DNA of 64,000 bases from Acidimicrobiaceae bacterium (GTDB lineage Bacteria; Actinomycetota; Acidimicrobiia; Acidimicrobiales; Poriferisodalaceae). The notes under the pieces were generated by a model that made no database searches, was not told the origin of the DNA, and saw only the letters and a program-made list of their open reading frames with translations. The position numbers and the translations under genes were made by a program. Positions 35,400 to 39,459 of the stretch are shown here, piece by piece; within the stretch, counting starts at the first letter, position 1, and the number at the start of each line of letters is the position of its first letter. The stretch lies in the NCBI GenBank assembly GCA_905182565.1, contig CAJJCB010000020.1, forward strand, positions 1 through 64,000, in the 5' to 3' direction.

Positions 35400-36416
35400 G
35401 TGAACCGCATCACTCAGCAGATTCTCAGCGAAAGCGAAGTTCTTGAGAAACTTCGTTCCAAACGAACCGAGCTTGGTTATAGGGCCATGTTCAGTTCATA
35501 CCTCGGCGGCGTCGTCACTGACCCAGCCTTAATGCAAATACCTATCGACGATCATTTAGTGCACCGTGGTCATGGCGTTTTCGACACTTGCACACTGGGA
35601 AATGGCTACCTATACCGACTAAGCATTCACTTGGATCGGCTTTTGCAAAGCGCAGAACTCGCACGGATAGACCACCCTTGGTCCAAAAATGAACTAGCCG
35701 AAATCATTACTGAAACAGCCTCTATTTCTGGCGTACAGAATGGTTCAGTGCGGTATTGGTTAAGCGTCGGACCAGGTGGATTCTCACCTAGTCCCGAAGA
35801 GTGTAAAGAGGCCTGCTTCTACTGTATTGTTTTCGACCCCGTTTCTCTAAGTGGGGCCTCTGATTCAAAGCTTAAAGGAATTCCAGAAGCGACAGTTCGA
35901 GGAGTTCCAATGAAGCCGCCTCTGCTCGCCAAAATTAAATCCAATAACTATTTACTCAATGTGCTCACCCATATGGAAGCAGTCGACCTCGGAGGGACCT
36001 TCGGAATTTTAGTAGATGATGGCGGTTACGTTGCAGAATCTTGTGTTCTCAACACGGCCTTTGTAGATAAACGTGGGGTACTACGAACGCCGCCTTTTGA
36101 AGGCATTCTAACTGGTACAACTATTCAGCGTTGTATGGACTTAGCGCAAAAACAATTAATACCTGAAGGTCTCCTCACAGGTTTAGAACAAGCCCCGGTA
36201 AAAGCTTCTGACGTGACCGGAGATCAAATTTCAGAAATGTTTGTGTGCGGGGGAGATACCCATATCTACCCAGTTACGTCATGGGATGGAATTCAAGTTG
36301 GGCAAGGAAAAGTTGGATCGGTGGCACAGCGCCTAATCGAACTGGTTGAAGGAGAAGCTGACGGGTCTATTCAGGGTGACCCTGATGATTACACCAAAGT
36401 CTATTACAAAGCTTAA
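35400..36416 (+). CDS. Class IV aminotransferase
   Basis: A 338-residue fold-type IV PLP enzyme, the class that holds branched-chain aminotransferases, D-amino-acid aminotransferases and aminodeoxychorismate lyases. The region HRGHGVFDT is typical of the class, the Schiff-base lysine is most likely Lys180 (KIKSNNYLLN), and the phosphate-anchoring Glu213 is in VAESCVLN. The substrate cannot be told by eye; the weak match to the ilvE pattern makes a D-amino-acid or specialised transaminase more likely. The start is GTG. It precedes the DNA polymerase gene after 141 bases that hold nothing recognisable. Confidence 0.87.
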   Translation: MNRITQQILSESEVLEKLRSKRTELGYRAMFSSYLGGVVTDPALMQIPIDDHLVHRGHGVFDTCTLGNGYLYRLSIHLDRLLQSAELARIDHPWSKNELAEIITETASISGVQNGSVRYWLSVGPGGFSPSPEECKEACFYCIVFDPVSLSGASDSKLKGIPEATVRGVPMKPPLLAKIKSNNYLLNVLTHMEAVDLGGTFGILVDDGGYVAESCVLNTAFVDKRGVLRTPPFEGILTGTTIQRCMDLAQKQLIPEGLLTGLEQAPVKASDVTGDQISEMFVCGGDTHIYPVTSWDGIQVGQGKVGSVAQRLIELVEGEADGSIQGDPDDYTKVYYKA

Positions 36417-36557: not shown

Positions 36558-38975
36558 GTGACAGTTATCAGCGACCCTCGACCTCAGCCTAAAAAATTTC
36601 CAGCTGATATTCCGATTGTTCGCGTGCGTCAAGAAGAGCTACAAGATTTCACGAACGCTCTTCGGAATTCAACGGCTCGAGCTATCGACACAGAGACGGT
36701 CTATCACCCTGATGCTTTCACTGAAGGCCCTGGGCAGCTCCGAGTGATATCTGCTGCAACAAAATTTGCTGATGGGACTGAAACCGCATGGGTAATTGAC
36801 GCAAACGAAATTTCAGTTGAAAGTCTAGCTACCGCTCTCTCCGGCATAACAGCAGATGCATGGAATGCAAATTTTGATTCGCATGTAATAGACCGAGACG
36901 TTTTTGCGCCAGCTAAACAATTAGGGCTTAGCGTCGAGCCCTTGCGTTGGTGGGATGCACAACTAGCAGACGCGTTGCTTTATCAGGGCCTAAGTGGCTT
37001 TAACTTCTACCATGGTCTTGCTTGGGCATCAGAATCGTACTTAGGGATTCACGCAGAAGGTAAAGGCACCACACAACTTTCTTACACCGCTGATTCAGCT
37101 CTGACAGAGCAACAAGTCATCTATGCTGCATCTGATGCTATTCAAACTATGTGGGTCGCTGAAAAGATCAGGGGCAGGATCAGCCATTCATCGCTAGATA
37201 CTATTTGCGAGCTAGAGCAACGGGCTAGACCCTTCCTTAATCAAATGGAACGAGCGGGGTTACCTTTCAACTGGGAAACTTGGCAAGAAGAGCTAACCGC
37301 AATGGAGCTGGATCGAAAGAGAGTAGTCACCCAGCTCGCCCAGATGAGTGGAGGTGGCCAAGCCTCACTATTTTCGGAATCGCTTGAACCTTCTTGGAAT
37401 CCTTCTAGCGAAGCGCAGACAAAAGAAGCGCTTAACGTTTGGTCGACGCACTATGTACGGCAGTGGGCTAACAAGCACATCGGCGAAGATCGTACTCTTC
37501 TCCCCAGCGATTCTCTCAATGCCTCAACTCTTGAACAAATTGGTGGTGAAATGTGCGAACTTCTACTCAGACATCGTGAGCTAAGCAAAATTTTGTCGAC
37601 TTATGGCGACAATATTCAAACCCATCTCAGATCAGATGGACGTCTTCATCCTGAATATTTACAGGTAGTAGGAACCAACACAGGTCGATTAGCAAGCAGA
37701 AACCCGAACGCTCAAAACTTGTCGCCCAAAATGAAGAGACATATCCGACCCAAAGAACATGACCGCGTTTTCATACATGCTGACCTCTCGCAAGCGGAAC
37801 TAAGGTTCGTAACCCAAGTAGCTTCAGATACTAATATGCGAGCAGCCTTTCAAAAAGGCGTCGATATTCATGAAGCTACCGCTGAGCGAATGTTTCAAGT
37901 TGATATGGCCGAGTTGGCCAATACTGATTCTCTAGCTCATGCTGAATTTCGAAACAAAGCTAAGAAAATCAACTTTGGAATCGTTTACGGACAACGCGGA
38001 GCCGGGCTAGCTCGAAGCCTTACCCAATCAGGCGTATCCACCTCCACGGAAGAAGGCACAAAACTGTTAGATGCCTACTTAGCTGCATATCCAGATATAG
38101 CGAGCTGGCTGAAGGTTCGTGACCAATTCATCGAACAGCTAGCTTCTTCAACAATTGAAATAGATTGGGAATTGACCTTCAAACTCCATTCTATGTTTGG
38201 TCCGATTCGGGCCGCACGAAGACAATTCCGAGATAGCTACCGGCGTTGGCCTTCCGCCGAAGAGCTACAAATCGAACTCAGAAATCAGTGGGAGCTGGAT
38301 GAAGTAGCTTGGACCCTTTCATTCCATGCTCCGGTTGTCTTAAACCTGAAGGCAGAGCCATATCGATTTTCTTCCCATACTCTCGCCGGTCGCCGCCAAC
38401 AATTCACTCTCCACACCGAAGGAGTGATAGAAAGATCAGCAACCCGGCTTATGCAATCTGACAAGAGTGGTCCGAAACAAGTAAAAGACAAAGTCTTATC
38501 TCAGTACCAAATGTCAAATGCCTCTGCAGGCTCTGAGCATTCCGAGATAGAAACAAAGAGACTCTTAGAAAATCGTGCTTTGAGACGTTCGCTTGTCGAA
38601 GAAGTTCGTGAGTCAATGGGCGCCGATGCATGGACACTCCTCCTCAACCAGGCATTCAGAGAAGGCATCCGACGATTAGCCAATGCCTACAGAAACGCTC
38701 CCATACAAGGCGGCGTAGCAGACATAATGCTTGATGCTTACGGGCAACTTTATGAGAAGCTACAAATATTCGATAGAGCGGTCGGCGTGCAAACGGTACA
38801 TGACAGCGTAGTAATCGAATGTTCTCGGTCTGAGTCTGTTCAGATTGGACAACTCGTCAAATCAACTCTCGAAAAATCTATGGCTCGATGGTGTCCCGAT
38901 GTCACTCCATTAGCCGACACTGATATACGCGTCAGTCTTTCTGAGAAAGACATTATCTCTGAGATTGTCTCTTAG
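36558..38975 (+). CDS. Family A DNA polymerase with 3'-5' exonuclease, two insertions and altered motif C
   Basis: An 805-residue Pol I-like enzyme without a 5' nuclease domain. The exonuclease keeps Asp44-Thr-Glu46, Asp107 and Tyr189/Asp193. The polymerase has motif A with Asp409 (HADLSQAELR), motif B Arg465, Lys469, Phe473 and Tyr477 (KINFGIVYG), TLAGRR at 608-613, and NAPIQGGVAD near 713-722. Motif C is VHDS (His748, Asp749, Ser750) where the family has VHDE. Compared with E. coli Pol I there are about 80 extra residues between motif B and TLxGRR and about 70 between TLxGRR and the NxPIQG motif. The start is GTG without a clear ribosome binding site. The role is unknown: an accessory repair polymerase or a gene of phage origin. 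Confidence 0.9.
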   Translation: MTVISDPRPQPKKFPADIPIVRVRQEELQDFTNALRNSTARAIDTETVYHPDAFTEGPGQLRVISAATKFADGTETAWVIDANEISVESLATALSGITADAWNANFDSHVIDRDVFAPAKQLGLSVEPLRWWDAQLADALLYQGLSGFNFYHGLAWASESYLGIHAEGKGTTQLSYTADSALTEQQVIYAASDAIQTMWVAEKIRGRISHSSLDTICELEQRARPFLNQMERAGLPFNWETWQEELTAMELDRKRVVTQLAQMSGGGQASLFSESLEPSWNPSSEAQTKEALNVWSTHYVRQWANKHIGEDRTLLPSDSLNASTLEQIGGEMCELLLRHRELSKILSTYGDNIQTHLRSDGRLHPEYLQVVGTNTGRLASRNPNAQNLSPKMKRHIRPKEHDRVFIHADLSQAELRFVTQVASDTNMRAAFQKGVDIHEATAERMFQVDMAELANTDSLAHAEFRNKAKKINFGIVYGQRGAGLARSLTQSGVSTSTEEGTKLLDAYLAAYPDIASWLKVRDQFIEQLASSTIEIDWELTFKLHSMFGPIRAARRQFRDSYRRWPSAEELQIELRNQWELDEVAWTLSFHAPVVLNLKAEPYRFSSHTLAGRRQQFTLHTEGVIERSATRLMQSDKSGPKQVKDKVLSQYQMSNASAGSEHSEIETKRLLENRALRRSLVEEVRESMGADAWTLLLNQAFREGIRRLANAYRNAPIQGGVADIMLDAYGQLYEKLQIFDRAVGVQTVHDSVVIECSRSESVQIGQLVKSTLEKSMARWCPDVTPLADTDIRVSLSEKDIISEIVS

Positions 38976-39042
38976 TTTTTGGTTACTTTCTCTATTAACA
39001 AAATTTCAGACAAACTCATTCAAACCGGCCTATTCTCTCAGC

Positions 39043-39459
39043 ATGACAATAGAAACTCATGATCGTCTTGAACTACACGAACTGCCCGGCCGGTATGGCG
39101 ATGCCATCGATGACCGCAACTGGGATTCACTGAGAAACATATTCACTGAGGACGCTGTCTTTGACCTCACCGACCTTGGAGCTCCTCGGCTAGAAGGAAT
39201 CGATCAAATCGTCAAATTCATGGATGAAGAAGCAGCTCATCCCAAGACACACATGATGACAAACATTTATGTAGATGAGAGAGGCGAGCAGATGCACATG
39301 TTCTTCAGGATCGTGGCTCTCCTCGGCAAAGGCTTTGTCGGTACCGCTTCTTATTACGATGAAGTCGTAAAGACACCATCCGGTTGGCGAGTCAAAAATC
39401 GAATTGTCACTATCAAACGTCGAGATAAACGCGCAGCAAAAGTTGATCTAACCTCTTAG
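39043..39459 (+). CDS. SnoaL/NTF2-like protein
   Basis: A 138-residue alpha+beta-barrel protein of the SnoaL-like or scytalone-dehydratase-like NTF2 superfamily. The pattern is visible in the N-terminal helix segment YGDAIDDRNWDSLRNIFTED followed by AVFDL, and in the closing strands around GTASYYDEVVKTPSGWRVKN and IVTIKRRD. Members are isomerases, dehydratases or small hydroxylase partners; none of the catalytic residues can be fixed here. The ATG at 39043 is chosen because an upstream frame to 38965 would run through the polymerase stop and encodes low-quality sequence. Confidence 0.8.
   Translation: MTIETHDRLELHELPGRYGDAIDDRNWDSLRNIFTEDAVFDLTDLGAPRLEGIDQIVKFMDEEAAHPKTHMMTNIYVDERGEQMHMFFRIVALLGKGFVGTASYYDEVVKTPSGWRVKNRIVTIKRRDKRAAKVDLTS

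Follow-up and report, generated by a model that had tools for sequence, protein, structure and literature searches.

A second family A DNA polymerase in Acidimicrobiales with two large inserts and a candidate clamp-binding loop in the thumb

The window, i.e. the whole 64,000-nucleotide stretch of an Acidimicrobiaceae genome that was analysed, contains a gene for a DNA polymerase whose domain content and motif spacing depart from those of DNA polymerase I. What kind of family A enzyme is encoded here, is it expected to be active, and what could its additional parts be for?

Motifs and conservation of the polymerase

The protein matches the Pfam families DNA_pol_A (PF00476, 181.5 bits) and DNA_pol_A_exo1 (41.3 bits), and its Pfam matches include no 5' nuclease domain. 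The exonuclease residues D44/E46, N103/D107 and Y189/D193 are present, and motifs A and B together with the catalytic aspartate of motif C place the protein in DNA polymerase family A. A structure model of the whole protein (pLDDT 84.1, pTM 0.80) matches family A polymerases, the best solved folds being those of the phage G20c, Aquifex and Bacillus enzymes. In E. coli Pol I the motif B lysine and GRR are separated by 60 residues, and GRR and NAPxQG by 27; here the distances are 142 and 102, which gives about 82 and about 75 extra residues before and after TLxGRR (Table 1). An earlier note on this DNA had described intact exonuclease residues and motifs A and B, VHDS instead of VHDE at motif C, about 80 and 70 extra residues around TLxGRR and the absence of a 5' nuclease domain, all of which is borne out by the Pfam matches and alignments.

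Table 1 Features of the polymerase gene and its upstream neighbour, with coordinates in the window.
Feature	Residues	Coordinates	Strand	Remarks
Class IV aminotransferase gene		35400..36416	+	Upstream, on this strand too; a near neighbour of the polymerase in 14/26 loci compared
Accessory family A DNA polymerase gene		36558..38975	+	GTG start, 805 aa, frame intact
DEDDy-type 3'-5' exonuclease domain	18-210	36609..37187	+	DTE44-46, N103..D107 and Y189..D193 intact
QASLF, candidate beta-clamp-binding motif	268-272	37359..37373	+	Short thumb insertion before WNPSS
Motif A, DLSQAELR	409-416	37782..37805	+	D409-R416 present (alignment)
Motif B / O helix, RNKAKKINFGIVY	465-477	37950..37988	+	R465/K469/F473/Y477 present (alignment)
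Insert 1, sigma-70 region 3-like helical module	526-606	38133..38375	+	Pfam, fold search, profile-profile comparison
TLAGRR	608-613	38379..38396	+	Alignment
Insert 2, helical	618-705	38409..38672	+	No relative found
NAPIQGG	713-719	38694..38714	+	Alignment
Motif C, HDS	H748-D749-S750	38799..38807	+	49/49 readable orthologue rows

Conservation was examined in an alignment whose 51 rows, no two of them identical, comprise P0001 and 50 fetched orthologues (42-92% identity); duplicates, the own copies of the window (L002-L004), the chimeric L047, L064 with its lost polymerase motifs, and fragments were left out. In this alignment 165 positions are conserved in at least 97% and the catalytic residues are kept across all rows, with motifs A, B and HD fixed in the full rows other than L064. 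Every row that extends to motif C has HDS. The HDS motif had been regarded as odd, and it does depart from VHDE, but it is less odd than it appeared, being fixed in the clade and also found in Microbacterium phage HerculesXL, which likewise has VHDS; Gordonia phage Agatha has VHDA at the aligned position. The residue that follows the catalytic aspartate of motif C matters less than the aspartate itself, so polymerase activity is expected from the sequence despite HDS. Against the orthologue L034 (92% identical) the gene has a dN/dS of 0.111; by part, the values are 0.123 for insert 1, 0.140 for insert 2 and 0.052, the lowest, for palm2.

Distribution, gene neighbourhood and the genome's own Pol I

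The same genome encodes a full-length polA elsewhere (G000:C24:153459, an open frame of 916 aa), so the 805-aa protein is a second family A enzyme. The earlier note had proposed this check, and the frame on contig C24 rules out that the genome has no polA besides the present gene. The DTE and NxxxD exonuclease motifs are missing from the six acidimicrobial Pol I rows aligned, that of the own genome included, and this Pol I probably cannot proofread. Pol I exonucleases are frequently inactive in Actinobacteria, according to PMC12926913.

Long matches to the polymerase were found in 37 of the 39 genomes of the window's family (f1), the exceptions being G034 with none and G013 with a fragment only; five f1 genomes (G019, G021-G024) have a long match and no fetched locus. 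Among 298 genomes sampled from Acidimicrobiales, matches above the polA level occurred in only five of 61 families: f1 (10/11 genomes), f17 (4/6), f18 (6/11), f25 (1/1) and f41 (5/6, including one fragment, G212, and L064). A profile of the insert region matched 2/296 genomes sampled from the class and 1/396 sampled from the phylum, both thin samples, and the matches were the own genome and G078, also of the Acidimicrobiales. Relatives in GTDB contigs come mostly from Acidimicrobiales MAGs.

Synteny was compared in 26 loci. In f1 the gene order is constant: one flank carries genes identified by eye as cinA, pgsA and rimO, followed by a P-type ATPase, the class IV aminotransferase and the polymerase, sometimes with a class I aminotransferase between the last two, and outside f1 the neighbours vary. 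A partnership with the aminotransferase was rejected, since this neighbour is conserved only within the close family and is different outside it. A class III aminotransferase adjoins the polymerase in two f41 loci (L108, L109), which we take as coincidence. A SnoaL-like gene (38965-39459) overlaps the end of the polymerase frame, and its family is present in 10/26 loci. In one locus a stand-alone LigD primase-polymerase gene (L036:3625-4521) lies directly upstream of the polymerase on the same strand. A role in NHEJ was rejected, Ku being absent from six of the seven f1 genomes tested, own included. L047, from a MAG labelled Pleurocapsa, has its first 128 codons 98% identical to the acidimicrobial orthologue L053 and fused to a glycosyltransferase-like frame, and is probably a chimeric assembly.

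A polymerase-core tree of 32 rows, 12 of them drawn from the 51 clade rows and L123 omitted, recovers the group as a clade of its own (100/99), separate both from actinobacterial APEX/PolA2 and its relatives (100/100) and from Pol I (91/84); the order of the deep branches, which are long, is not to be relied on. The view that the gene lies in ordinary chromosome beside an aminotransferase, and belongs to a lineage-specific accessory polymerase, agrees with the conserved synteny, the restriction to one order and the frequency within the family. The polymerase is best read as a vertically kept, chromosomal second family A enzyme of one Acidimicrobiales group.

The thumb loop and the two inserts

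Residues 265-272 of the protein read GGGQASLF. The alignment places this loop immediately ahead of WNPSS, at the gap occupied in T7 gp5 by a long insertion that precedes FNPSS, the thioredoxin-binding domain. QxxLF is found in 50 of the 51 rows, with HGTLF in the remaining one, and is fixed in this sense across 42-92% identity. Fifty rows were reached at any position in 36 of 20,000 column permutations, for a motif that had been chosen after being seen. Neither E. coli Pol I nor any of the six aligned Pol I rows of Acidimicrobiales has the loop. Its flanks (GGG and EPxW) are equally conserved and it is modelled as a hairpin, so a structural role is possible. A scan of the DnaE-type and DinB-type proteins of the own genome for the lineage's clamp-motif consensus gave nothing usable. 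In PolA2/APEX (the latter name given by Czernecki et al. 2023, according to PMC12926913), QxxLF is a beta-clamp motif sited in the dead exonuclease domain, as reported in that paper, and the thumb QxxLF is therefore the same type of motif in another place. All five APEX-type rows that we aligned (L118-L122) have lost the exonuclease motifs, and four of them (L119-L122) carry Q[PS][SA]LF, L118 not having been recovered when the motif was scored. Four further APEX-like proteins (L124-L127; three from genomes of the same order and one from elsewhere in the phylum) fall under the NCBIfam cut-off and lack the APEX QxxLF. From its sequence and position we regard the thumb QxxLF, which the earlier note does not mention, as a candidate beta-clamp hook and a likely processivity element.

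Insert 1 resembles region 3 of sigma-70 factors, a likeness that the earlier note had also not picked up. Folded alone, residues 518-722 gave a model with pLDDT 84.8, for which Foldseek found nothing in the PDB at E ≤ 0.001 (best E 0.2 or worse), many of the weak rows being sigma factors. In a second fold search 49 of the 50 matches listed were sigma factors, alone or as chains of RNA polymerase complexes, with the two labels RPSB and RPSD read as sigma factors; they lie on insert 1 with Z of 5.5-6.4, and Z below 8 can reflect chance or a common arrangement only. The odd one among the 50 was the helix-turn-helix of LexA.

The sequence test of this likeness came after the fold search. In an alignment of 28 insert-1 sequences (A3; 27 clade rows and L064), PF04539 (Sigma70_r3) matches 12 at a lax E, and the other Pfam families listed match one each. 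The best score, 25.5 bits (E 1.4e-5) for the orthologue fragment L014, lies just above the gathering cut-off of 25.3, and the window's own insert 1 has no Pfam match. Sigma factors make up 10 of the 17 NCBIfam families listed for insert 1. When ten genomes were searched in six frames for PF04539-type sequences, the polymerase gene was matched in G004, G005, G302 and G078 (E ≤ 0.1), none above the cut-off; the full gene of G004 reaches 24.3 bits. By hhalign, the 28-row alignment lands on region 3 of 14 sigma factors of the same genomes with an E of 0.0023, and the 51-row alignment less two partial rows gives 0.0011. Not one of 300 shuffles of the columns attained this score, and when eight other parts of the polymerase were compared in the same way E was 0.13 or worse. 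The hhalign probability of the match is 13-20%, and in a profile search of the PDB a repeat protein and a coiled-coil protein rank above sigma factors. On balance we think it somewhat more likely than not that insert 1 shares descent with sigma region 3. For insert 2, Foldseek found no relative at E ≤ 0.001, the listed fold-match rows covering insert 1 only. The earlier suggestion that the inserts could alter partner binding takes a concrete, still candidate form in insert 1.

Possible function and relation to known family A polymerases

Exact GAACN4GTTC boxes lie at the starts of the dnaE2-like and imu-like genes of this genome (named from domain and size), namely GAACATATGTTC and GAACATACGTTC at L134:4638 and L131:3833 on contig C20, and by their sequence and placement are likely the LexA sites of the lineage. 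In the 26 loci the 250 bp that precede the polymerase gene hold no exact box, and one-mismatch sites occur at three of them, about the chance expectation from the window's rate. An SOS translesion role was rejected for this lack of a box, which also points to constitutive, non-SOS working, though as weak evidence because the promoter may lie further upstream in an operon.

Our tentative preference, which we hold with somewhat less than even confidence, is that the enzyme fills gaps constitutively and with proofreading while tethered to the clamp, and that an additional module gives it a grip on DNA or on a partner. Sequence features, conservation and distribution are what the analysis shows, and every activity and interaction is inferred from them. 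The beta clamp would hold the enzyme by the QxxLF loop of the thumb, where T7 polymerase holds thioredoxin, and the sigma-region-3-like module between fingers and palm would grip duplex DNA or a protein partner. Gaps would be filled by the polymerase and proofread by its own exonuclease, to judge from the motifs present, and this would take place constitutively, outside the SOS mutasome. An extension of this scheme, in which the captured sigma region 3 docks the polymerase on RNA polymerase or on promoter-like duplex while the clamp holds the thumb, would connect it to the transcription and the replication machinery at once, amount to transcription-linked repair, and appears improbable.

The same enzyme could instead be pictured as an ordinary, untethered accessory gap-filler, its QxxLF hairpin having a structural role and its insert 1 being a helical bundle of a generic kind. 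The predicted hairpin with its invariant flanks speaks for this, as do the fold Z scores, which at this level may signal a common arrangement only; Pfam, the shuffle-controlled hhalign comparison and the fold search nevertheless converge on the same sigma region, and QxxLF is fixed over a wide range of identity. We consider this a serious possibility that falls short of being probable. Much less credible is that the exonuclease has become the main function while the polymerase site is relaxing. The HDS motif would fit such a change, and so would L064 (G236:C403), an open frame of 774 aa without motifs A, B and C, in which the exonuclease motifs, QGNLF and insert 1 are nonetheless kept (56% identity to L058 in the exonuclease and 39% in insert 1, the fingers being nearly deleted). 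L064 is known from one MAG with 6% contamination, however, and motifs A, B and HD are fixed in the remaining full rows, with palm2 under the strongest constraint by dN/dS. If L064 is real, the exonuclease, hook and insert would be useful without polymerisation.

A domesticated phage polymerase of the PolA3 kind, which the earlier note had considered, is likewise unlikely. An exonuclease and polymerase without a 5' nuclease, a match to PHROG 17 and HDS in a phage enzyme are compatible with it, but neither viral contigs (searched by protein, alignment, C-terminal part and insert alignment) nor phage records (searched by insert) gave an insert-bearing relative, in pattern-based scans that detect mainly close relatives. 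The 40 phage records listed are at most 29.7% identical, and no record covers 80% of the query. The chromosomal synteny is conserved, and the four phage rows of the core tree do not enclose the clade. An ancient phage origin of the clade is possible.

If the clamp-tethered reading is right, APEX is joined by a family A lineage that combines a clamp tether with live proofreading motifs, and a DNA polymerase carries a sigma-factor-like module. With the tether at the thioredoxin site of T7 polymerase, one position in the thumb would have served processivity on two occasions. This reading suggests how lineages whose Pol I lost proofreading could retain accurate gap filling, and points to a repair enzyme with unusual connections to its partners. 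No description of the group, of a DNA polymerase bearing a sigma-like insert or of this thumb clamp motif was found in titles and abstracts of open-licence PMC papers.

The present enzyme shares the polymerase fold with Pol I (PolA1), but lacks the N-terminal 5'-3' nuclease and has two inserts, HDS and the QxxLF loop. T7 gp5 also combines exonuclease and polymerase and has an insertion at the same thumb position, although there it is the thioredoxin-binding domain, and T7 gp5 reads VHDE at motif C and has fingers and palm that are not set apart by a large insert. The exonuclease/polymerases of PRK14975 have the same domain order and are the best NCBIfam match of the protein, at 210.8 bits to the equivalog NF011539, below its cut-off of 640. 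PolA2/APEX is, according to PMC12926913, also an actinobacterial accessory family A polymerase without a 5' nuclease and with a QxxLF, but its exonuclease is dead and holds the QxxLF, whereas here the exonuclease motifs are intact and QxxLF lies in the thumb. Membership in PolA2/APEX was rejected on the intact DTE, NxxxD and YxxxD, the thumb position of QxxLF and the tree; the present group adds the inserts and HDS and forms a separate clade. PolA3, as described in the same paper, has intact exonuclease motifs and no 5' nuclease as well, but is scattered, occurs in prophages and has close phage homologues, whereas the present group is chromosomal, confined to one order as sampled and without phage homologues found. 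Judged by its sequence, its location and the phage scans, the group differs in at least one defining trait from each of Pol I, APEX and PolA3.
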